A model generated the notes under the pieces. The model searched no databases. It was given only the letters and a program-made list of their open reading frames with translations, and was not told where the DNA came from. A stretch of DNA of 64,000 nucleotides from Bacteroidales bacterium (lineage in GTDB: Bacteria > Bacteroidota > Bacteroidia > Bacteroidales > F082): positions 1-64,000 of the forward strand of contig JAKSMV010000016.1 of NCBI GenBank assembly GCA_024400425.1, in the 5' to 3' direction. Shown in pieces: positions 22,934 through 54,428 of this stretch. A program made the position numbers and the translations under genes. How positions within the stretch are numbered: position 1 is the first letter of the stretch; every line of letters begins with the position of its first letter.

Positions 22934-24262
22934 TCAGAATACATAATTGAACCCGATAAAGGACTTCAATTTATTGCCATCAAGTTCGTTGAAAGCACGG
23001 CCAAAGTCGGCAGAGACAATGAGGTTACGGTTCATAATGAGCTTCACGCCGCAGCCAGCACTCATGTGGATGCCTTCCTTTTTACCGCTGTAGAGGGCAA
23101 ATTGTTCACTCATTTGATCATCGGCACTCTTCAGTTCTTCCTCGCGGAAAGTTTGGGTTACGAGACCTGCATCGAAGAAAGGATTCAAGGCCACAATCCA
23201 ATTCTGGTTGATGAACTGGAAGCCCACCACGCGCCAACGCAATTCGGCATTGGCAAAGGTGAAGCCTTCGCCGATGACACCATTACGGTTGACACCGCGC
23301 ATCGTGACCGAGCCACCTAAGCCTTCGGTGTACATCTTTTGGAAAAACATGGTATTCAGGTTGTTAATCATATACCAAGGCATTTCGCCAGCCAGCAAGT
23401 TTTGTGTACCAAGGCGATAGGCGAAAGTCAGTTTGTCGCGATAGATAGGCACATAATGGCGCCACAGGAACGTGAGTGAAAGGTTGCTGTACCCTTTTTT
23501 GTCGATGAAATCAGGAGCACCAACGAGGGTGGCCTCAGCATAGATGCCACGCGTAGGATCGCTAGTGAGGTCGCGGCTGTCATAGACCATACCGAGACGG
23601 ATTTGTGTGGTGTTACCACCGTCCTTCTCGTTGTCGCGGATGAGGCCTTTTTCGACATAACGCTCATACATGGTATTCTGTTCTTCATAACCTGGAAGAT
23701 CGACGCGACCTACCTTAGTATTATAGTAGGCCAAACCAGCACTCCAATACAAGTTAGGAACATTGAAGAACGGACGCTGCATGCTTCCAACGAAACGGAA
23801 CTGATTGCGATTCAAAAAGTTATAAGCTGATTTCTCATAGCCGACAGGGTCGAAATGGTTCGACTCGAAACCATTGAAACCGAAGAACTCGTATTTCTTG
23901 GCATAGAAATAAGTGACATCGAAAAACAACTTGGTGTCTTTCACGACGTATGGCATGTCGGAATAGAAACGGAACACACCCGAGCCTTTGGTGTAGCGCG
24001 AAGCCTCCACGTTGAACTTGTAGTTGTATTTCGGATAGCGAGTGCCATCACCATAATTGAAAATGTCGCAGCACAAACCATATTGGAAACCCAGGTCGGC
24101 ATCATAGCCTACCACTGGCAACGGACCGAAGTTCCAGCCTTTCTTGATGATTTCACCTTTTTCGTTGTAGGTCTTTTCTTTCTTAGCTTTCTTTTGTTTG
24201 TCTTGCGAGAAACCATTGACAGCCAACAAGGCGCAAATGGCAAAAAGGAATAGTTTTCTCAT
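22934..24262 (-). CDS. Omp85/BamA-family outer-membrane barrel protein
   Basis: Encodes 442 residues with a signal peptide (MRKLFLFAICALLAVNGFSQ). A Lys-rich linker is followed by GPLPVVGYDADLGFQYG and then alternating strands typical of the Omp85 surface-antigen barrel, ending with a C-terminal aromatic (FNYVF). There is no room for several POTRA domains, so this is a short, POTRA-poor family member rather than BamA itself. The start is ATG 24262, 21 bases after the TACTTTTG box. It has a clear terminator downstream. Confidence 0.85.
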   Translation of the reverse strand: MRKLFLFAICALLAVNGFSQDKQKKAKKEKTYNEKGEIIKKGWNFGPLPVVGYDADLGFQYGLCCDIFNYGDGTRYPKYNYKFNVEASRYTKGSGVFRFYSDMPYVVKDTKLFFDVTYFYAKKYEFFGFNGFESNHFDPVGYEKSAYNFLNRNQFRFVGSMQRPFFNVPNLYWSAGLAYYNTKVGRVDLPGYEEQNTMYERYVEKGLIRDNEKDGGNTTQIRLGMVYDSRDLTSDPTRGIYAEATLVGAPDFIDKKGYSNLSLTFLWRHYVPIYRDKLTFAYRLGTQNLLAGEMPWYMINNLNTMFFQKMYTEGLGGSVTMRGVNRNGVIGEGFTFANAELRWRVVGFQFINQNWIVALNPFFDAGLVTQTFREEELKSADDQMSEQFALYSGKKEGIHMSAGCGVKLIMNRNLIVSADFGRAFNELDGNKLKSFIGFNYVF

Positions 24263-24283
24263 ATTCGTATAAATTTGGACGAG

Positions 24284-24291
24284 CAAAAGTA
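24284..24291 (-). promoter_or_regulatory. -7 box of the Omp85-like gene
   Basis: TACTTTTG on the minus strand; it excludes the longer in-frame start at 24286. Confidence 0.65.
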
Positions 24292-27805: not shown

Positions 27806-28372
27806 ATGACCACTTCAGCTATCATCATCAGCGTCATCTACGTGATTTGCCTCACCTCAAGCGTAGTGTCACGATCGGTAGGCATGGTGAGTACCGATGA
27901 CAAACCTTCACAAAAACTGCTGGTGCCACTCATCTTTGGCGCAACCCAAGCCGTGATGGCCTTTCTCGGCAACCTTGTGGGCGGGCTCATCTCGCATCTG
28001 TTCTCCTACATTGCCGAGTATTTGGTCTTTGCCATGATGCTGGTGGTCACTGTCAAGATGTTCGTCGATTCCATGAGGGTATTGAAAGGGAAGATGATGT
28101 ACACCGCCCGGAAAGAGATGGATTTCCTGCTCTTGGCTGTCATGGCTTCCGTCAACACTTTCCTGATGGCGCTTTTCGGCACCACCTTCATGCCCTTCGG
28201 CAAATGGTTCTATGCCATCGTCGCCTTGGCAGCCTTCTTGTGGGTATTCATCGTCGAGAAGTTCCCATTCAACCCCAAGATGCTGAAAAAAGTCAGTTTC
28301 GTTGAGTTTGCAGCTTCGGCTTTCATGCTCATCATTGCTATCCTTTACATGTTCACCGATTTATTAGCTTGA
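27806..28372 (+). CDS. divergent MntP-like membrane protein
   Basis: Encodes 188 residues with six predicted helices in two three-helix halves, like MntP manganese exporters. The usual acidic membrane residues are not kept: the second-half motif normally like SxDA is here ASVNTF. Mn2+ transport is therefore uncertain. A canonical MntP is encoded at 36914-37483, so this may be a diverged paralogue with another substrate. Start ATG 27806 follows its own promoter. The stop lies 3 nt before the ATG of the endonuclease gene, so they are co-transcribed. Confidence 0.7.
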   Translation: MTTSAIIISVIYVICLTSSVVSRSVGMVSTDDKPSQKLLVPLIFGATQAVMAFLGNLVGGLISHLFSYIAEYLVFAMMLVVTVKMFVDSMRVLKGKMMYTARKEMDFLLLAVMASVNTFLMALFGTTFMPFGKWFYAIVALAAFLWVFIVEKFPFNPKMLKKVSFVEFAASAFMLIIAILYMFTDLLA

Positions 28373-28374
28373 TT

Positions 28375-29934
28375 ATGAAAAAGATATTTTTGTTTTTCGT
28401 GACTTTGTCACTCTCATTAGCTACCTTTGCCCAACCTGCCAATTATTATAATTCGGCCAATGGCCTTACGGGCAACCAGTTGAAAATTGCCCTGCACAAC
28501 ATCATCAAAGGCCACACTTCGATATCGTACAGCCAAATCATGAACGCCTACTGGAGCACTGACAACAAAGGCAATGGCGTGGTTTGGGACATGTATTCCG
28601 ACCGACCAGGCGGCACGCCTCCTTATACCTTTTATCTAGGTCAAGATGCCTGTGGTTCCTATAGCGGCGAAGGCGACTGCTTCAATCGCGAGCACTCCTG
28701 GTGCCAGAGTTGGTTTAACGACCAAAGCACACCGCGCACCGACCTGCACCACATCTTCCCCACCGACGGCTACGTCAATGGTCGCCGTAGCAACAACCCT
28801 TTCGGTGAGGTGCGTTCAGCCGATTGGACTTCGATGAACGGTTCGAAACTCGGCTCATGCAAGACTTCTGGATATTCGGGTACTGTCTTCGAGCCTATCG
28901 ATGAATACAAAGGCGACTTTGCCCGCGCCATCATGTATATGAGCGTACGCTACTATGGTGAAGACTCAGGCTGGAGCAGCAGCGGCATGACCGACAAGAG
29001 CGAAATCAAGCAGTGGGCCATCAATATGCTGCTTCGCTGGAACGAACTCGACCCCGTCAGCCAGAAGGAAATCGACCGTAACAATGCGATTTACAATGAC
29101 TATCAGCACAACCGCAATCCTTTCGTCGATCATCCGGAATATGCCCGCATGATTTGGGACCCCAATTGGCACGGCACAACCTATACCGTTACCCTCTCGG
29201 CCAGCAATGGTGGTTCCATTAGCCCAGCGGGAACGCAAACCGTAAATGCCGGTAACAACCTGACTTTCACTGTCACACCTAATGCCGGTTATGTTATCGC
29301 CACTGTAAAAGTGAATGGGACTGCCGTCAGTTTAAACTCAAGCAACAGCTATACCATCACCAACATTCAGCAAAACACCACGGTTAACGCCACTTTTATC
29401 GAAAACACTGGCGACCTTTGTTCGGCACCGCAAGGCCTCACCGCTTCCGCATTCCAGAACACAGTCAACTTGGTCTGGCAAGCCGTGCCAGGTGCAACCG
29501 AATATGAAATCTATCGCGACGGCTCGCATATAGCCATGATGGCAAATGCCACCAGCTGGACCGACCGTTATCTCTCAGTAGGCGAACATTGCTATATGGT
29601 TGTCGCCTATTGTCTGGAAGGCATCTCCGACCCTTCAGATATCGTTTGTGCCGAAATAACCTATTCCGATGTAGAAGAAAACAGCAACGAGCCTGTGTAT
29701 CTTTTCCCCAACCCCATTGAGCGAGGCCAGGAGATGCATCTGAGCGGCAACCAATGGAAATTCGATTCGGTTGTGGTTTGTGACCTGTGCGGTCATGTCA
29801 TGCTCAAGGCGGCCGGGAAGTCACAAGGCGGCTTTGCGGTGACCATTCCCGTTGACATGCCTCGCGGATGCTATATCGTCCGTCTGATGAATGGCGGCGA
29901 AACCGTAAAGAACCTAAAACTCATGGTAAGATGA
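28375..29934 (+). CDS. secreted endonuclease I with T9SS sorting domain
   Basis: Encodes 519 residues. Signal peptide (cleavage near FAQ, 19-20). Residues about 25-265 are endonuclease I, with the metal-dependent active site DLHHIFPTDGYVNG (H125/H126) and NREHSWCQSWF. Then come an InlB-type B-repeat (about 268-345), an Fn3-like domain (about 350-435) and a C-terminal T9SS type A sorting domain with SNEPVYLFPNPIERG. It degrades external DNA, probably for nutrition, and should be exported through type IX secretion. ATG 28375; the queD ATG overlaps its stop. Confidence 0.93.
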   Translation: MKKIFLFFVTLSLSLATFAQPANYYNSANGLTGNQLKIALHNIIKGHTSISYSQIMNAYWSTDNKGNGVVWDMYSDRPGGTPPYTFYLGQDACGSYSGEGDCFNREHSWCQSWFNDQSTPRTDLHHIFPTDGYVNGRRSNNPFGEVRSADWTSMNGSKLGSCKTSGYSGTVFEPIDEYKGDFARAIMYMSVRYYGEDSGWSSSGMTDKSEIKQWAINMLLRWNELDPVSQKEIDRNNAIYNDYQHNRNPFVDHPEYARMIWDPNWHGTTYTVTLSASNGGSISPAGTQTVNAGNNLTFTVTPNAGYVIATVKVNGTAVSLNSSNSYTITNIQQNTTVNATFIENTGDLCSAPQGLTASAFQNTVNLVWQAVPGATEYEIYRDGSHIAMMANATSWTDRYLSVGEHCYMVVAYCLEGISDPSDIVCAEITYSDVEENSNEPVYLFPNPIERGQEMHLSGNQWKFDSVVVCDLCGHVMLKAAGKSQGGFAVTIPVDMPRGCYIVRLMNGGETVKNLKLMVR

Positions 29935-33347: not shown

Positions 33348-35540
33348 ATGAAAAAATCCATCCTTTTACTAATCATCGCAATTTCTTGCGCAATGCAGTC
33401 TTTTGCCTATGATTTCCCAACCTTAGCGCCATCGGGGCAGATAATTTATCTGAACATTGTAGATAGCGAAAACCGCACTGCCTGTGTGACTTATCCTAAC
33501 TACATAAATGGAATCTATTATTACGGTTACGACAAACCGACAGGCGATCTGATTATTCCAGAAACATTTACTAATGGTAATGTCACTTGGACAATCGTTT
33601 CGATCGGAGACCACGCATTCGACTATTGTACGGGACTAACCTCCATTGAAATTCCCAACACGGTAACAACAATCGGAGAACAAGCTTTCTATCATTGCGA
33701 AAACGCTACCGACATAAAACTCTCTGAATCATTAACTACAGTAGGTTATTTCGCTTTCGGTCACTGTACCCAATGGACAGGCACGCTCAACATTCCCGCT
33801 TCAATGGTTTCCGTTGGAAGTTGTGCTTTTGACGTATGCACAAAGCTAAGCGGATTATCCTTGCCTAATAAAAACATTGAGTACAGTTATCTCTGCTTTG
33901 GAAATTGTGGATTCGAAGGCCAATTGGTATTGCCTGACAGCCTGACTACTATTGTTTCTTCTATGTTTTTTTCTTGTGAAAAAATAACAAATGTTGTATT
34001 TCCCAATACACTTACCAGCATTGAGAATAGTGCCTTTGCATATTGTACCTCATTGACGGCAATACACATACCAAGTTCTACAAGCCGAATTGATGGTTAC
34101 TCTTCATATAGTGAAAATCCTTTCCGTGGCTGTAGAAACCTGATGGAGATAACTGTCGATGAAAATAATGAAAGGTTTTATTCAGAAAACAATGCCATCA
34201 TTGAAAGGGAAAGCAAGAAACTAAGGGTTGGATGCAAGACAACCATTATTCCCGAAGATATTGTGAGCATTGGAAGATATGCTTTTTCTCAAGTTGGAGA
34301 AGCTCCTTTTCCAACCATTCCAAGTTCTGTTACTACTATTGATGAAAGGGCTTTTTCTGGTTGCGAATTTACAGAACCTTACGTGATACCTAACACTGTG
34401 ACAAGTATTGACAAATACGCATTTAATATTTGCAATTTCAGAGAATTTACCATTCCAAATTCCATAACTGTAATCCCTGAAGGTTGTTTCTCACTGTGTC
34501 AGTTCCTGAGAAATGTAGTGATTCCAGAAAGTGTACAAACAATAGAAAGGTATGCGTTTGAGCGTTGCTCATCATTGTCATCGATTTATTGTTATGCCCA
34601 ACAACCGCCAACTGTATTAGGTACAAATATAACGTCACCATTCTATGGCGTTTCTAAAAGCATACCTGTCTATGTTCCTGCTGGCAGTGCCGAAGTCTAC
34701 AGAAACGCTCCGGTCTGGGAGGAATTCACGAACTTTATTGAAATACCAGAATTTGCTCCAACCCACGCCGAATGGTACTACGAAATCCAAAACGACAACG
34801 GCAGCATCACTTACCAGCAGTTGCAGCAAGAGGGCGACACGGTCATCGAACATAAGGATGTGAAAATCATTGTGCGCACCAACACCTTGTACGACAAGCA
34901 TCAGGAAATCACGCACGAATACGTTTACGAGGAAAACAACGTGGTGTATTGGTGGAACAAGACTTTGAACGAGTTCACCATGCTCTACGATTTTGCAGCC
35001 GAGACCGGCGACGAGTGGCAGATTAAGGCAGGAACGGAAACCATTACCCTGCACGTCGATGCCGTTGAACTCGTTGAATACGATGGACGGACATATAAAG
35101 TGATGAACGTCAGCGATGAAGGCGACCTGTTTTCAGGCAACATCGTCTGCGGCATCGGACATGTTGCAAGTCTCTTCCCCGAAAAACTGATGCAGAAAGC
35201 TCTCCCGTTTGACGTTGAAAGCCTGCGTTGTTACTGGGTAAATGACGATTTGATTCTGCACATGGGTACGGTCGATTGCGATGAAATTCTCACTGTGGAG
35301 GAAAATGTCTCAGCACAAGATTCCGAAAGCATCGCCCTCTATCCAAACCCGACCAACGGCACTTTGTACATTGAAAACCAAGGCTATGCCAGCACATTCA
35401 GCATCAGCAACATGCTCGGGCAAACCGTGATGACAGGCAACATTGCCGACAACCAAATCATCGATGTTTCGCTATTGGATGATGGGATGTATTTCATCTG
35501 CATTGGACAGCGGACAGTGAAATTTGTGGTTCGGAAATGA
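33348..35540 (+). CDS. BspA-like leucine-rich repeat protein with T9SS sorting domain
   Basis: Encodes 730 residues. Signal peptide (cleavage after SFA), then about 14 LRR_5-type repeats of 22-24 residues built around TxIGxxAFxxCxxLTSIxIP (about 70-455). A non-repeat domain (about 464-650) and a T9SS type A sorting domain (about 655-730, SIALYPNPTNG) follow. BspA-like proteins act in adhesion and host-matrix binding. The base composition changes within the gene near 34740: AT-rich repeats, GC-richer tail. That suggests recombination joined an LRR module to a resident C-terminal part. A second, similar gene is at 52941. Confidence 0.92.
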   Translation: MKKSILLLIIAISCAMQSFAYDFPTLAPSGQIIYLNIVDSENRTACVTYPNYINGIYYYGYDKPTGDLIIPETFTNGNVTWTIVSIGDHAFDYCTGLTSIEIPNTVTTIGEQAFYHCENATDIKLSESLTTVGYFAFGHCTQWTGTLNIPASMVSVGSCAFDVCTKLSGLSLPNKNIEYSYLCFGNCGFEGQLVLPDSLTTIVSSMFFSCEKITNVVFPNTLTSIENSAFAYCTSLTAIHIPSSTSRIDGYSSYSENPFRGCRNLMEITVDENNERFYSENNAIIERESKKLRVGCKTTIIPEDIVSIGRYAFSQVGEAPFPTIPSSVTTIDERAFSGCEFTEPYVIPNTVTSIDKYAFNICNFREFTIPNSITVIPEGCFSLCQFLRNVVIPESVQTIERYAFERCSSLSSIYCYAQQPPTVLGTNITSPFYGVSKSIPVYVPAGSAEVYRNAPVWEEFTNFIEIPEFAPTHAEWYYEIQNDNGSITYQQLQQEGDTVIEHKDVKIIVRTNTLYDKHQEITHEYVYEENNVVYWWNKTLNEFTMLYDFAAETGDEWQIKAGTETITLHVDAVELVEYDGRTYKVMNVSDEGDLFSGNIVCGIGHVASLFPEKLMQKALPFDVESLRCYWVNDDLILHMGTVDCDEILTVEENVSAQDSESIALYPNPTNGTLYIENQGYASTFSISNMLGQTVMTGNIADNQIIDVSLLDDGMYFICIGQRTVKFVVRK

Positions 35541-47005: not shown

Positions 47006-48400
47006 CTATTTTTTCCGCACAATTTTACAAACAACCAGAATCGCCAAGGAAAATAGCGCGATACCCAACAAGCCGAAGAAAGCCAAACGATAGCTATTGC
47101 GTTGCGACTGAAGCGTTTCAATTTCCTCATTTTGAGATTCATACATGGCGAAAAGACTTTCGGCATCGTCTTGCAAGTCAGCCAACTTCTCACTCAAGGC
47201 ATTACTCTCGTTGAAAACCGATGCGTAATTTTCCTGAAACAAATCCAGTTGCTCTTTCATTTCGGCGAAATGACCTAAATGGGCATAATCGGCAATCAGA
47301 TAAGGACGCACCGAATTGACAAACACTTGATTTCCATTTTCTTCCGCAATCTCCACGCATCTTTTCAGATAGACCGCCGAAGTGGTGAAATCACCTTTTT
47401 CATTATAATGGATACCCAACATCCAATAAGATTCCATCGTGCCGTTCAGATAGCCCATCGTTTCGGAAGAATGCAATGCCGACTGATAGAGGCTCATCGC
47501 ATCGTTTTCGCGACCCAATTTCATCAACACGTTGGCTGTTTCAATCTCGTCCTCAATCAGCACGATTTCATCATCCACGTTTTCGGCGCAAGCCACCGAC
47601 TTCTGCAAATAAAACAATGCAGAATCATAGTTGACGAGTCCGGTAGCATACACTGTTCCAAGGTTTTGATAGGCATGCGCCAGCGAGCTTTCGTCGTCGA
47701 AGCGCTTGAAGACAGGAATCGCTTCCTGCAAGATTGACTTTGCCTTGTCGAATTGCTGCCATTGCACATAGATATTGCTGATGTTGTTGTCGCACTGAGC
47801 CACAGAAAGCGTATCTCCCAGATATTCAAACTTTTGTCGGGCCAAACTAAAACTTTCCAAAGCCTTTTCCAATTCGTCCTGATGAAAATAGATGTAAGCT
47901 AAATTGTTGGTGACATCAGCGCAATTCGGCTCATCGCCAAGATGTTGCGAGACTTCCAAATCTCTGAGATAAGTAGCAAGAGCTTCATCTAGGTCACCCA
48001 TCAGCAGTTCGACACGGCCCTTATAGTCCAAGGCATACATCAGCCATTCCGATTCCTCTTTGCCTTCAAGCAGTTCGATAGCTTTGTCGAAATGCTCAAG
48101 CGCCAAGTCAAAATCATAATGGTTCATAAAACTTGTGCCCAGCATCCAGTACGTCCAGGAGAGCAAGTCGTCATCGCCCAACTTCTCGGCTTCGGCGACG
48201 GCTGTTTCACCAATCGAAATGCAGTCGTCAAACGACACACTGAACATGAACCGAGCCAATTCCGCCATGGTTTCAACCCTTTTCACACCTTCTTGCTTTG
48301 CCATTACATTTTGCAGGCTATCAATGACTTGCATTTCTTCCTGCGCAAAGGAAAACGATGCCAAAAGCGCAAAAACCAATATATTGATCAATCTTTTCAT
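47006..48400 (-). CDS. TPR protein with C-terminal membrane helix
   Basis: Encodes 464 residues. Signal peptide (cleavage after SFA, about 19), then about nine tetratricopeptide repeats (about 25-370), a short coiled coil (395-435) and a single C-terminal membrane helix FFGLLGIALFSLAILVV followed by KIVRKK. The repeat-helix layout matches the TPR sensor at 31777, but here nothing follows the helix, so it lacks an output domain. It overlaps the MBL hydrolase gene by 4 nt (ATGA). Confidence 0.8.
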   Translation of the reverse strand: MKRLINILVFALLASFSFAQEEMQVIDSLQNVMAKQEGVKRVETMAELARFMFSVSFDDCISIGETAVAEAEKLGDDDLLSWTYWMLGTSFMNHYDFDLALEHFDKAIELLEGKEESEWLMYALDYKGRVELLMGDLDEALATYLRDLEVSQHLGDEPNCADVTNNLAYIYFHQDELEKALESFSLARQKFEYLGDTLSVAQCDNNISNIYVQWQQFDKAKSILQEAIPVFKRFDDESSLAHAYQNLGTVYATGLVNYDSALFYLQKSVACAENVDDEIVLIEDEIETANVLMKLGRENDAMSLYQSALHSSETMGYLNGTMESYWMLGIHYNEKGDFTTSAVYLKRCVEIAEENGNQVFVNSVRPYLIADYAHLGHFAEMKEQLDLFQENYASVFNESNALSEKLADLQDDAESLFAMYESQNEEIETLQSQRNSYRLAFFGLLGIALFSLAILVVCKIVRKK

Positions 48401-49038
48401 CCAAGGAACATATTGTAACGTTGTTCATCGCCAATGGTGGTTTCCTCGCCATGACCAGGCAGTACGGTTGTGTCGTCAGGCAGATGGAAAAGCTTGCCGC
48501 GGATGCTGCCGCGCAACTCTTCGAAACTACCACCTTCGAAATCGGTACGGCCTATGCTGCGGCAGAAAAGCGCATCGCCCGTAAACACCCAACCTTCCAA
48601 TTCGGCATACAAACTGATGCTGCCTTTGGCATGACCTGGAGTTGCTATGACTTCGAGCGTGCTCTCGCCAACCTTAATCACCTCGTCTTCAATAAGTTCA
48701 ACATCTGGCAATTCGCAATCGTCGGCAAAAGGCAGACCGAATATGGCCGCCTGACGCTTGGCATGAAGAAAATCAGAACGGACATCAGCGTGAGCAGCCA
48801 CCTTGATACCGTAATGCTTTTTCACGGCTGCATTGCCCATGATGTGGTCGATATGTCCGTGCGTGTTGATAACCATCAACGGCTTGAGGCCTTTCGAATC
48901 GATGAAAGAGAAAAGCTGCTCTGACTCGACCGACGATGAGCATCCCGGGTCGATGATGATACATTGCTTGGTCTCGTCGTAAACAACGTAGGTGTTTTCG
49001 CCAAATGCGTTAAAGACAAAGGTTTTGAGTTTCAGCAT
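48397..49038 (-). CDS. MBL-fold metal-dependent hydrolase (glyoxalase II-like)
   Basis: Encodes 213 residues. Binuclear metal site THGHIDH (59-65), a further ligand in TPGHAKGS, D in FTGDALFC, and PGHGEETT at the C-terminus. Typical of short glyoxalase II-like hydrolases; thioester or other substrate unknown. ATG 49038 follows a TATTTTTG box and the gene is the first of a two-gene unit with the TPR gene. Confidence 0.9.
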   Translation of the reverse strand: MLKLKTFVFNAFGENTYVVYDETKQCIIIDPGCSSSVESEQLFSFIDSKGLKPLMVINTHGHIDHIMGNAAVKKHYGIKVAAHADVRSDFLHAKRQAAIFGLPFADDCELPDVELIEDEVIKVGESTLEVIATPGHAKGSISLYAELEGWVFTGDALFCRSIGRTDFEGGSFEELRGSIRGKLFHLPDDTTVLPGHGEETTIGDEQRYNMFLG

Positions 49039-49063: not shown

Positions 49064-49105
49064 AGGAAAAGTTTAGAGTTGAAAACATGATAGTACTATT
49101 TTCCC

Positions 49106-49128: not shown

Positions 49129-52100
49129 ATGGAGACAAAGACACGAAGCATAGGAATCAAATGGCTGCTGTTGGCTTGGCTGATGGCATCGACATCCATG
49201 CTCCAAGCCCAGTTCTACAACGGCATGAACATGCCCTTCGGCAAGAACCGCGTCCAGTGGAACGACTTTCATTGGTCGTATTACAGCAACGACAATTTCG
49301 ATGTGTATTACTACCAAGGCGGCGACGATTTCGCAAGATATGCACAAAGCTATGCCAAGACTCAGATTCCACTGCTCGAAAGCCGACTCAATAGTCAATT
49401 CAGCAAAAAAATACAGTTCATCCTGTTCAACAACCTCGCCGACCTCAAGCAAAGCAACCTGTTTTCGGACGATGAAGAAAGTGGCAACACGGGCGGCATC
49501 ACCAAGATAATCGGCTCGAAAGTAGTGCTCTATTTCGATGGCGACTACACCCATTTCGAGACCCAGATACGCGACGGCATCGTACAACTGCTGTTCAGCC
49601 AAATCATGAATGGCACCTCGGTAGGCTCGCAAATCCGCAATTCATACCGCTACGACATTCCCGAATGGTTCCAGAACGGACTGATTGCCTACATCGCCAA
49701 CGATTGGGACAGCCACAAGGAAGAACAGCTTCAACGCGGCATCGTATCGGGCGACTACAAGAAAATCAACCAATTATACAACGAAGACGCTTTGATTGCC
49801 GGCTATTCGTTTTGGAATTTCATTGCCGAAAAATATGGCAGCAAGGCCTTCAACGACATCATGACCCTTGCCGAAAGCTCGCAAAACGTGCGCCGCGCCC
49901 TGCTTTATGTGACCGGAAAGGATTTCAAAGACCTCACAGCCGATTGGTTTGAGTTCTACAAGAGCCGTTACAGAACCTTGCTCAGCCATCGACCCGAAAG
50001 TCCCATGAAGCTGAGCTACAGGAAATACCGCACTTTCACCCAACCCAGTATCAGTCCCGACGGAAAATATATCGCCTACGTCAGCAACGACGAAGGCCTC
50101 ATCCAACTGTGGCTTGAAAACCTTCAAAGCGGAAAGAAACAGAAACTCTTCAAGACAGGTTACCGTTCCGACGAACACATCGACACGTCCTACCCGCTTT
50201 TGGCATGGCATCCAAACAGCCAAATCCTGTCGTTCATCGTGGAGGAAAAAGGCAAGATACAACTCTACAACCTCGACATCACCACTGGCAAGAAAGCTAG
50301 CACATTCCTATTCGAATTCCAGAAGGTGACATCCTTCTCATACGCTCACAAAGCACGAAAAATCGTAGTGGCTGGTACGCGCAAAGGCAAAGCCGACATT
50401 TATGTTTACAACCTGTTTTCCAACACTTTGGAACAAATCACCAACGACTACCACACCGACCTAAATCCCGTGTTCAGCAACGATGACCAGCAAATCATCT
50501 TTAGTTCAAACCGCACCAACGACACCATCAAGTACGAAAAGGAAATCGGCTTCCAAAACAGCCAATTCGACCTTTACGCCTTCGATTACGTCAGCAAAAG
50601 CCCCGTGCTTCAAAACCTGACCTGCCAAAAAGTGACCAACAGCATACTGCCACAATTCCTCAAAGACGGCAGCATCCTCTACCTGAGCGACTCGACCGGC
50701 TTCTACAACCTCTGCCAAGCGCAACTCGACAGCGCCATCAGCTTCATCGACACCACCATCCATTACCGTTATTTCGCCCAAACCCGCCAACTCACCGACT
50801 ATTCAGCCAACATCATCGACTACACCTACTACCCTCGCGACAACAAAATCGCCATGCTCATGGCTTCAGAAAATGGCGAAAAACTCTATCTCTCGCCCAG
50901 TCTCAACGCCATGCAAGGCACACAGATACGACAACTGAATCCATTTGCACAAAAGCGAATCATCGATGAATCGAAACAAACCGAAGCCCAAGCCCTTCCT
51001 CAAACTCCAAAACACAAGTTCGTGACGAGCTACCGTTTCAGCAGGCGCAAGTCCAACAATTCGGGCACAATGTTCAATGATTCCGCCGTCGCTCCGCCCA
51101 CCAATGCCGTTGCAGAGAAACCTATCAAGAAAGACACCATTCAACGACCAAATAACTACTATGTAGAGCTTTTCACCGACCAGCTTTTCTCGCAAATCGA
51201 CTTCACAAACATGAGCTACAGCTATCAGCCCTTTGCGGGCGGCGGATCACCCGTATATCTCAACATGGGATTCAACATCTTCCTCGGCACCACCCTGAAA
51301 GACCTCATGGAAGACTACAAAGTTGACCTCGGCGTGAAACTCAACACCTCACTCACCAACAACGAATACATGCTGCGTTTCAGCGACTTGAGCAAACGCA
51401 TCGACAAGTCGCTCACCCTGCACCGCTACGTCACCGACGACTACTCCTATTATTATTACCGCACCGTCACCAACGAAGCCTTCTACCAGCTCAGTTACCC
51501 CTTCAGCGAAGTCTTAAGTCTGCGCGGCACCCTCATCTACCGCAACGACCACCGTACCAACCTCGCCATCGACGACTACAGTCTTGGCGACAAAGACACG
51601 CAAGAACATTGGGGCGGCCTGCGCGGTGAACTCGTATTCGACAACGCACGCAAGATAGGTAACAACCTCTACGTCGGCGCACGAGGAAAGGTCTTTGCCG
51701 AATACTATCAACTCGTTGGCAAAGGCATGAACAACATGATCGTGGCAGGCTTCGACTACCGTAATTATACGCGCATCAGCCGTAACTTCATCTGGGCCAA
51801 CCGAATCGCTGGAAGCGGCTCGTTCGGGAAGAACAAGCTCATCTACTACATGGGCGGTGTTGACAACTGGATTGGAGCCAAATTCAGCAACAGCACCCCC
51901 ATCGACTACGACCAGAACTATGCCTACCAAACCATAGCCACCAACATGCGCGGCTTCAAGCAAAACATACGAAACGGAAACAATTTCGTGGTGATTAACA
52001 GTGAATTGCGATTCCCTGTGTTCAGTTATCTCCTCAACCGACCCATCAACATGCAATTCATCCGTGATTTCCAGGTTGTGGCCTTTGGCGACATCGGCAC

Positions 52101-52341
52101 AGCATGGACCGGATGGAATCCCTACAACCTCAACAATTCGCTTTACACCTCGCACTATCAAGACGGTAACCTCAATATCAGCGTCACCGAAATGAAAGAA
52201 CCCATCGTTGGCGGTGTGGGATTTGGCTTGCGCACTACCTTATTCGGCTACTTTATCCGCGGTGACGTGGCTTGGGGCATCGAGGACGGTGCCATCAGCA
52301 AGAAACCGCAATTCTATTTCTCGTTCAATTTGGACTTTTAA
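49129..52341 (+). CDS. large exported protein: gluzincin-like domain, WD40/TolB-like propeller, outer-membrane barrel
   Basis: Encodes 1070 residues from ATG 49129. Signal peptide (SMLQAQ, about 27). Residues 30-290 resemble peptidase MA/gluzincin domains, with DIPEWFQNGLIAY (about 176-188) matching their downstream motif, but the HExxH is absent, so it is probably inactive. Residues about 295-620 carry TolB/WD40-like blades (SISPDGKYIAYVS, NPVFSNDDQQIIFSS). From about 675 to the end the sequence alternates like an Omp85-type barrel and finishes FYFSFNLDF. Known from Bacteroidota genomes as TolB-like/surface-antigen proteins; function unproven. It converges with nadD. Confidence 0.85.
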   Translation: METKTRSIGIKWLLLAWLMASTSMLQAQFYNGMNMPFGKNRVQWNDFHWSYYSNDNFDVYYYQGGDDFARYAQSYAKTQIPLLESRLNSQFSKKIQFILFNNLADLKQSNLFSDDEESGNTGGITKIIGSKVVLYFDGDYTHFETQIRDGIVQLLFSQIMNGTSVGSQIRNSYRYDIPEWFQNGLIAYIANDWDSHKEEQLQRGIVSGDYKKINQLYNEDALIAGYSFWNFIAEKYGSKAFNDIMTLAESSQNVRRALLYVTGKDFKDLTADWFEFYKSRYRTLLSHRPESPMKLSYRKYRTFTQPSISPDGKYIAYVSNDEGLIQLWLENLQSGKKQKLFKTGYRSDEHIDTSYPLLAWHPNSQILSFIVEEKGKIQLYNLDITTGKKASTFLFEFQKVTSFSYAHKARKIVVAGTRKGKADIYVYNLFSNTLEQITNDYHTDLNPVFSNDDQQIIFSSNRTNDTIKYEKEIGFQNSQFDLYAFDYVSKSPVLQNLTCQKVTNSILPQFLKDGSILYLSDSTGFYNLCQAQLDSAISFIDTTIHYRYFAQTRQLTDYSANIIDYTYYPRDNKIAMLMASENGEKLYLSPSLNAMQGTQIRQLNPFAQKRIIDESKQTEAQALPQTPKHKFVTSYRFSRRKSNNSGTMFNDSAVAPPTNAVAEKPIKKDTIQRPNNYYVELFTDQLFSQIDFTNMSYSYQPFAGGGSPVYLNMGFNIFLGTTLKDLMEDYKVDLGVKLNTSLTNNEYMLRFSDLSKRIDKSLTLHRYVTDDYSYYYYRTVTNEAFYQLSYPFSEVLSLRGTLIYRNDHRTNLAIDDYSLGDKDTQEHWGGLRGELVFDNARKIGNNLYVGARGKVFAEYYQLVGKGMNNMIVAGFDYRNYTRISRNFIWANRIAGSGSFGKNKLIYYMGGVDNWIGAKFSNSTPIDYDQNYAYQTIATNMRGFKQNIRNGNNFVVINSELRFPVFSYLLNRPINMQFIRDFQVVAFGDIGTAWTGWNPYNLNNSLYTSHYQDGNLNISVTEMKEPIVGGVGFGLRTTLFGYFIRGDVAWGIEDGAISKKPQFYFSFNLDF

Positions 52342-52940: not shown

Positions 52941-54428
52941 CTATTCTTTCACTATTCTCTCAATCCTAACAAATCCACTTTCATCGTAGATTTTCACCAA
53001 ATAAATTCCAATTGCCATCGAAGACAAGTCCATAAAATCGCCAGAACTCTTTGCAACACATTGCCCATCTAAATTGTAAATTTCCATTACACAAGAACCT
53101 TCACTTGCAATTTGAATGTAATCCTTCGTTGGGTTGGGATAGATGAAATTATTATCTGAGTGACCTTCAAAACACTCTGTCACATCCTCGAAATGAGCCA
53201 TAATCGTAATATCATCAGTGACTGGAAACTCGTATTCCATATCCATGGAAACTTCCACATCATTTATTGTCCAATACAAGAATTCATAACCCTCGTTGGC
53301 TTCTGCCTTCACACGAGCTATGTTGTCATCGCAACTTGGCTCTTGAATGATAGAAGCCGTACCAGCACACAAATCATCAACTTCAACCAGCACTGAAGAC
53401 GAAAACAATTCTGAATAATTATTGAACCTACTCCAATAGGCGGCATTTCTATAATCATCTACTCGGCCACATGGAACCATCACTATCATATCGTTATTAT
53501 CAAAAACAAAGGTATCATTGCCTATAACCGGAGGAAGTTCTGACTTACATTGAATTGATAACAAAGCCGAACAAAAATAAAAAGCATAATCTCCTATTGT
53601 CAATAAATTTTTCCCAAAAATCACAGAAGTGATATTTGAATCTCTAAAAAAAGAATAACTACCTATAGTTTCAACCGAATTGGGAAATACTATAGTTCCA
53701 GAAAGACGAGTTGCTTCCCAAAATGTATAAGAAGGAATATGTTTAACTTGTTCTCCAAAAATAAGATGTTCAATATTGCTATCACCAAATATTCCAGTGT
53801 TATAAAAACTCGGGATAACAAGATTTTTCACATTATATCTGAGTTCATGAAAACCTGTCTTCCAAAAAGCCTGTTCATCAATTGACAAAATGTTTTCACC
53901 TAACGTCAATGTTCCTTCAAGACTGCGGCACCCTGAAAAAGCACCATACCCAATTGTTTCGATGCAATTCCCTAAATATAAATTACCCTCAAAACCACAA
54001 TCAGAAAATGCATTAATTCCTATTGAAACAACACCAAAAGGAATAACCAACGAACCTGAAGTTTGATAGCAATTATAGAAAGCCATTCCATCTATCAACA
54101 CTAATCTGGAAGGCAAAGTCAAAGAGCCAACAAGATAATCATGGCCAGAAGCGGGACCAATTCCAGCAAAAGCCTTATAGCCAATTTGTGTGATAAAGTA
54201 CGACAATCCTGTTTCAGGATTGATAACCTCGTCAGGTATAACCAAACTATTTGGTACACTATGATAGTCACAAAAAGTAACTTTTACAGCTGTATCATTC
54301 AAAATTTCACATCTTATGGTTTGACCTGTAGGGCAATCCACTTCAAATTCTGAACGATTATTTTGCCCAAATAATCCATGGCAAAGAACTAATTGCAAAA
54401 AGCAGAAAAACAAGGTTTTAATCTTCAT
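52941..54428 (-). CDS. LRR (BspA-like) protein with T9SS sorting domain
   Basis: Encodes 495 residues. Signal peptide (cleavage near GLFGQ). About ten LRR_5-type repeats (about 70-320: IGYKAFAG, IGINAFSDCGF, IGSYSFF), a repeat-like beta domain (about 345-410) and a T9SS type A sorting domain (about 418-495, NNFIYPNPTKD). Clearly more AT-rich than gmk and nadD on either side. It probably encodes a surface adhesin that was inserted between two housekeeping genes. Confidence 0.9.
   Translation of the reverse strand: MKIKTLFFCFLQLVLCHGLFGQNNRSEFEVDCPTGQTIRCEILNDTAVKVTFCDYHSVPNSLVIPDEVINPETGLSYFITQIGYKAFAGIGPASGHDYLVGSLTLPSRLVLIDGMAFYNCYQTSGSLVIPFGVVSIGINAFSDCGFEGNLYLGNCIETIGYGAFSGCRSLEGTLTLGENILSIDEQAFWKTGFHELRYNVKNLVIPSFYNTGIFGDSNIEHLIFGEQVKHIPSYTFWEATRLSGTIVFPNSVETIGSYSFFRDSNITSVIFGKNLLTIGDYAFYFCSALLSIQCKSELPPVIGNDTFVFDNNDMIVMVPCGRVDDYRNAAYWSRFNNYSELFSSSVLVEVDDLCAGTASIIQEPSCDDNIARVKAEANEGYEFLYWTINDVEVSMDMEYEFPVTDDITIMAHFEDVTECFEGHSDNNFIYPNPTKDYIQIASEGSCVMEIYNLDGQCVAKSSGDFMDLSSMAIGIYLVKIYDESGFVRIERIVKE

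Follow-up and report, generated by a model that had tools for sequence, protein, structure and literature searches.

Omp85 barrels preceded by a beta-propeller were described as WD40-Omp85 proteins by Heinz and Lithgow in 2014, who likened them to a fusion of BamA with BamB and admitted Omp85 subfamilies that lack POTRA domains (PMC4104836). The OMP-TolB-like proteins of a 2025 report similarly have a TolB-like propeller and an adjacent domain ahead of an outer-membrane barrel (PMC12204202), such that the propeller-Omp85 architecture is already known in outline. The gene characterised here encodes a protein with this arrangement, and lies within a window of 64,000 nucleotides, the whole stretch of DNA analysed, from contig JAKSMV010000016.1 (assembly GCA_024400425.1) of a Bacteroidales bacterium; hereafter, the order is Bacteroidales and the class is Bacteroidia. 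By well-supported prediction, its product starts with a signal peptide, continues with a domain of gluzincin fold that has no metal site and with a propeller resembling TolB, and ends in an Omp85 barrel of the BamA type.

Compared by description, the WD40-Omp85 proteins share with the window protein a propeller most similar to TolB, its position N-terminal to an Omp85 barrel and the lack of POTRA domains, but no peptidase domain is mentioned in the accessible part of that description (PMC4104836), whereas the window protein has a domain of apparent gluzincin fold. Likewise by description, the domain adjacent to the propeller of the OMP-TolB-like proteins is given as a Rossmann fold (PMC12204202), whereas that of the window protein is predicted to be a gluzincin fold, the zinc site of which is intact in other classes. 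The BamA- and TamA-type Omp85 proteins have the same barrel fold (Z up to 24.9) and the same RGF and DxG signatures, but carry an array of POTRA domains where the window protein has a propeller and a pseudo-peptidase. Orthologues from outside the class, and a paralogous family of ~1040 residues, share with the window protein the succession of gluzincin domain, propeller and barrel motifs, but keep the HExxH motif and third-ligand Glu that it lacks, with the exception of one outside-class relative (L147).

A dead gluzincin domain on an Omp85 barrel was not found in the open-access literature, and what is presented here as new on that basis is the recognition of the front domain as a gluzincin, its loss of the active site throughout the family members on the window's side, and the move of constraint towards the barrel. 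These proteins form a natural before-and-after pair, in which orthologues from other classes of the phylum have an intact peptidase and every window-side orthologue examined has a dead one. Hence it becomes possible to ask directly what role a peptidase domain has on an Omp85 barrel besides cutting. The protein also adds a POTRA-less Omp85 member, of putative function, to the parts list of the Bacteroidota envelope. The anatomy and history of the chain set out below are very probably correct, whereas its proposed function is considerably less certain.

Anatomy of the chain

The open reading frame is confirmed to be more than a chance one by the presence of the gene in 117/198 genomes of the order (orthologues at E <= 1e-69) and by a ratio of non-synonymous to synonymous substitution rates (dN/dS) between orthologues that is well below 1. 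An earlier note on this DNA, made from the sequence alone, had read the N-terminal region as carrying the downstream peptidase MA motif without an HExxH, followed by a TolB-like propeller and an outer-membrane-type barrel. Structure prediction bears out each of these parts, with a barrel present and the N-terminal metal site not intact, and goes beyond them in assigning the barrel specifically to the Omp85/BamA type. The whole chain was modelled using AlphaFold2 with an alignment of 64 sequences, giving a mean predicted local distance difference test (pLDDT) score of 80.8 and a predicted template modelling (pTM) score of 0.79.

The propeller is the only part confidently found by sequence models, with Pfam PD40 matching two stretches (1e-14). 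The TolB profile TIGR02800 also matches the propeller, at 1.7e-21, with a score of 76.6 bits that is below the equivalog cut-off of 343.15. Its best matches are to TolB both by sequence, among the TolB chains of the PDB, and by fold, residues 293-595 of the model aligning to TolB (2hqs_A) with Z 23.9 and a root-mean-square deviation (rmsd) of 2.8 over 247 residues.

The N-terminal domain, predicted alone with a pLDDT of 80.0, aligned to M1 aminopeptidases and M9 collagenases across 221-235 residues with Z of ~13-14.7, values which mostly helical models can reach without kinship, and its best Foldseek match was to collagenase T (E 2.7e-5). One structural match was to a chain of a TFIID subunit, presumably TAF2, a dead relative of the M1 peptidases. 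In the window protein, Peptidase_MA_2 (PF13485) scored 14 bits, below its cut-off of 32.4 (E 0.043), and was confined to the downstream half of the model; in all four of the outside-class orthologues scanned, the same family exceeded its cut-off (48.2, 51.5, 54.1 and 50.1 bits). It is this agreement between the structural matches and the outside-class orthologues that supports the assignment of the predicted domain to the gluzincin (peptidase MA) fold.

The barrel has ~16 long strands by our own count from the predicted model, in which residues 682-1070 aligned to BamA of D. radiodurans (8xnb) with Z 24.9 and an rmsd of 4.0 over 316 residues, and to BamA of F. johnsoniae with Z 23.1; a Foldseek comparison with BamA gave E 2.6e-11. 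When the barrel alignment was compared by HHalign with 31 proteins with PF01103 matches, the probability was 96.5% (E 8.5e-10), against 0.1-0.6% for controls using shuffled columns, reversed sequence, the propeller or the N-terminal domain. The 31 proteins were those exceeding 650 residues out of 32 extracted loci, and one of them (L180) is below the PF01103 cut-off. PF01103 itself was above its cut-off in the barrels of three of the five outside-class orthologues examined (G200, G302 and G388), and also in a more distant relative (L149). R941 and G942 are conserved in both the dead and the intact states, as are D988 and G990, with F943 being conserved in the dead group only. The RGF motif is taken here to be the signature of the Omp85 loop-6 type, in its RGF/Y form, and DxG to be a second Omp85-type signature. 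No POTRA domain was found in the window protein using Pfam, and by fold residues 29-596 are occupied by the gluzincin domain and propeller. The linker that follows the propeller has a pLDDT below 50 across most of residues 623-671, and a mean pairwise identity of 0.17 in the group that has lost the site.

Inactivation of the peptidase and the shift in conservation

The site was surveyed in 161 aligned proteins, from which removal of duplicates left 117 distinct rows on the dead side. These consisted of 43 from the window's order or class by assigned kinship (the window, 29 from the order and 13 from the class) and 74 other loci, which by title were from Bacteroidia or groups now within it (57), Bacteroidota only (14), or otherwise (3). 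In the window protein, the columns that read HELVH in intact orthologues read DGIVQ, and the column of the third-ligand Glu holds Asn183, such that all four site residues are replaced. The absence of HExxH claimed by the earlier note therefore holds at the level of alignment columns, and extends to 117/117 distinct orthologues of the window's side. The Glu of HExxH was replaced by Gly in 103 of the 117, including 32 of the 43 rows with assigned order or class kinship, and was retained in none; the first His persisted in two, the second His in nine and the third-ligand Glu in ten, with the latter two never occurring together. In one dead row (L020), an HExxH occurs at a different place in the chain. 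Two loci titled Chlorobiota (L064 and L071), and one titled Alphaproteobacteria (L092), were 54-55% identical to sequences from the order, compared to 25-27% to intact ones, hence their labels are probably binning errors arising from mislabelled or mixed bins.

The full site, comprising both His residues, the catalytic Glu and the third-ligand Glu, was present in 19/19 outside-class orthologues chosen from the same phylum, which were hand-picked rather than sampled randomly, and did not include L147, which was left outside both groups; counting it would give 19/20. In L147, from another class of the same phylum (genome G470), HExxH reads RELAL and the downstream NEGLAEY is kept, which is likely to reflect an independent, incomplete loss in this long-branched sequence. 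The ~1040-residue paralogous family (L142 and L150-L161) retains HExxH, the propeller and Omp85-like motifs. An FMO bacteriochlorophyll protein was above cut-off in two genomes with an intact site (G202 and G467), which is assumed to mark these as green sulphur bacteria.

A tree was constructed by a quick method from 71 of the 161 aligned rows, with the site columns excluded. In it, 38 dead window-side orthologues formed one clade, with a Shimodaira-Hasegawa-like approximate likelihood ratio test (SH-aLRT) support of 100 and a branch of 1.53. Two state changes were enough on this tree, the second being in the long-branched L147, which was placed among the outside-class orthologues, and was the one of 14 outgroup rows to fall on the wrong side. 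The tree thus places the main loss of the peptidase site on one branch, leading to the window's side. Because the outside-class orthologues and the paralogue are both intact, loss, rather than gain, would be the simplest direction, with the root resting on the outgroup.

The dead domain remains under purifying selection rather than decaying. Of 30 listed orthologue pairs, 14 allowed the synonymous rate (dS) to be estimated, and in these the dN/dS of the N-terminal domain was 0.03-0.11, similar to that of the propeller, and that of the linker was 0.09-0.22; the window sequence is in none of the listed pairs. What differs between the states is where conservation is concentrated. Among intact orthologues the N-terminal domain is the most conserved part, with a mean identity of 0.557 compared to 0.429 for the barrel, and the barrel is the more conserved of the two in just 2/171 pairs; the intact paralogue is alike in this regard (0.578 compared to 0.463, with the barrel ahead in 0/55 pairs). 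Across the 104 dead rows from the order and the other loci, mean identity is instead higher in the barrel (0.566) than in the N-terminal domain (0.501), with the barrel ahead in 4899/5356 pairs. The 12 dead rows that belong to the class but not to the order gave 0.341 for the barrel and 0.320 for the N-terminal domain, with the barrel ahead in 44/66 pairs. Hence conservation moves from the peptidase to the barrel, an effect that is clear in mean identity and small in fixed positions. In the region of the former cleft, the GGxT segment, P178, W180 and G184 are conserved in both the dead and intact states, and may correspond to a retained binding cleft.

Proposed function and alternative explanations

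The preferred reading, to which a probability of roughly 0.4 is attached, is that the protein may be a POTRA-less factor for outer-membrane assembly or quality control, in which the former peptidase serves as a non-cutting binder of clients. The chain very probably descends from a version with an intact HExxH...E site, which was lost on the branch to the window's side. The barrel would sit in the outer membrane and both globular domains would lie in the periplasm, where the former peptidase cleft would hold client segments without cutting them; the clients would be newly made barrel proteins, lipoproteins or some other substrate of the envelope. The propeller would dock partners, and the conserved Omp85 core of the barrel would help to insert, hold or quality-check outer-membrane proteins. 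The net effect would be a one-chain analogue of BepA-plus-BamB function on an Omp85 barrel. A more specific account, in which an Omp85-fused outer-membrane peptidase was switched off early in the lineage and became a barrel-centred, POTRA-less assembly factor, an extra BamA-like machine with the dead protease as its client-binding arm, is tentative and would be rather unlikely to hold in full. The earlier note had suggested an outer-membrane-anchored platform for periplasmic interactions, a conjecture that the three-part anatomy fits. The barrel-assembly machinery of Bacteroidota has recently been shown to differ from its E. coli counterpart (PMC12611786, PMC12578637). BamI, the sole propeller subunit of Bacteroidota in the accessible text of those reports, was considered as an identity for the window protein and rejected, being described as an Ig-like domain plus a propeller (PMC12611786, PMC12578637), and no mention of TolB, a propeller or a peptidase was found in the accessible part of PMC12611786.

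Several observations weigh against an assembly or quality-control factor with this history. In a Pfam scan PF01103 missed the window protein and every in-class orthologue examined (14/14, the window's included), and having the BamA fold in common would not by itself demonstrate insertase activity. The loss of HExxH is not confined to one group, having also occurred in L147, outside the class. The dS was saturated, or above 1.5, in most of the pairs compared. A first count of positions conserved solely in the dead group gave 33 in the barrel and three in the N-terminal domain, but a size-matched sample cut these to 5-6 and 0-1 respectively, hence the claim of a conservation shift rests on the mean identities. 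No operon clue could be upheld, the recurrent neighbours being housekeeping genes (metallo-beta-lactamase fold, ribonucleotide reductase, TauE-like and heptosyltransferase family). Furthermore, the gene was not found in 81/198 genomes of the order, some of which are incomplete, and the role must therefore be dispensable or replaceable. One of the genomes lacking the gene (G101) is 99% complete and belongs to the same genus, and a profile search of it matched nothing but the propeller regions of other large proteins; hence it is unlikely that the role is essential to the whole order.

That the best matches of the propeller, in sequence and in fold, are to TolB could be taken to indicate a TolB-like tether, with the propeller binding a peptidoglycan-bound or inner-membrane partner and thereby linking the outer membrane with either the cell wall or a force transducer, in place of Tol-Pal. 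One report is compatible with this, as it proposes that TolB derives from an OMP-TolB-like ancestor, and states that Tol-Pal loci could not be identified in Bacteroidetes (PMC12204202). Such a tether is nevertheless improbable, as the similarity to TolB falls far under the equivalog cut-off, and it would not explain why the core motifs of Omp85 are conserved or why the pseudo-peptidase domain is retained. An outer-membrane job outside protein assembly, such as the handling of lipids or polysaccharides, or a receptor, is judged improbable to the same degree.

Display at the surface, whereby the barrel would carry the N-terminal domains to the outside of the cell to bind an external ligand, is considered less probable again. 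Fusions of Omp85 barrels to enzymes do exist, and for the patatin fusion PlpD transport of the enzyme domain to the cell surface has been proposed (PMC4104836), but Pfam and profile scans of the window protein matched no domain known from surface adhesins, and an inactive enzyme would need a different reason for its exposure. Least plausible, to the point of being very hard to credit, is a peptidase domain that would still be catalytic through different residues. The fold and GGxT segment are retained, and single site residues survive in a few of the dead orthologues, but the window protein keeps none of the four, the catalytic Glu survives nowhere on the window's side, and no orthologue of that side combines the second His with the third-ligand Glu.

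Distribution, coordinates and neighbouring genes

The number of genomes in the order with an orthologue and the number of dead rows, both 117, are different counts that are equal by chance. Phylum-wide, 199/296 genomes had a match at 1e-10, paralogues included. The ~1040-residue paralogue was present in 24/198 genomes of the order (E <= 4.1e-293, with one copy partial). Mutual exclusion of the dead orthologue and the intact paralogue was considered and rejected, as 10 of these 24 genomes carry both (p 0.078). A link to the type IX secretion system (T9SS), hinted at by the earlier note, was not supported, the marker SprA being found in 29/29 genomes with the gene compared to 17/19 without it (Fisher p 0.15), in a test of low power given that 46/48 genomes have SprA. 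The divergently transcribed gene with the metallo-beta-lactamase fold has a relative in 53/81 loci, including the window, and a downstream ribonucleotide reductase in 43/81, the window not among them; some of these loci are cut by contig ends.

The positions of the gene and its parts are collected in Table 1. The coding sequence (CDS) is single-copy in its own genome, save for one weak, propeller-only match elsewhere, and a second in-frame ATG lies upstream of the start, at 49087. The cleavage site of the signal peptide appears, judged by eye, to follow residue 27; Q28 and Y30 are invariant across the 64 aligned orthologues, and inspection of the sequence revealed no lipobox Cys at the mature end.

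Table 1. Positions, in the window, of the gene, its predicted parts and its divergent neighbour
Feature	Positions	Strand	Basis or remark
Whole CDS	49129..52341	+	1070 residues plus stop, ATG start
Putative signal peptide, residues 1-27; mature end QFYNG	49129..49209	+	Sequence
Predicted peptidase MA domain of gluzincin fold, metal site absent, residues 29-292	49213..50004	+	Fold matches; site-column alignment
HExxH remnant DGIVQ, residues 149-153	49573..49587	+	Column alignment with intact orthologues reading HELVH
Third-ligand position, Asn183	49675..49677	+	Glu in 19/19 intact orthologues
TolB-like beta-propeller, residues 293-596	50005..50916	+	Pfam, TolB profile, PDB sequence matches, fold match
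Linker, residues 597-675	50917..51153	+	Low model confidence, poor conservation
Predicted Omp85/BamA-type beta-barrel, residues 676-1070	51154..52338	+	Profile comparison, fold matches
RGF motif, residues 941-943	51949..51957	+	Invariant in 64 sequences
DxG motif, residues 988-990	52090..52098	+	D988 and G990 invariant in 64 sequences
Metallo-beta-lactamase-fold gene, divergent neighbour, not part of the system	48397..49038	-	Pfam PF00753

Elsewhere in the window, the gene at 22934-24286 (-) encodes a 450-residue protein with a match to the Omp85 domain PF01103 over residues 90-439 (50.3 bits) and to no other Pfam family, which on this sequence evidence would be a second unusual Omp85 protein. 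The gene at 33348-35540 (+) encodes a BspA-type leucine-rich repeat protein, the Por secretion C-terminal sorting domain of which makes it a likely T9SS substrate; the product of 52941-54428 (-) resembles it by eye. The gene at 28369-29934 (+) encodes an Endonuclease I domain, after which comes a divergent InlB-type repeat.

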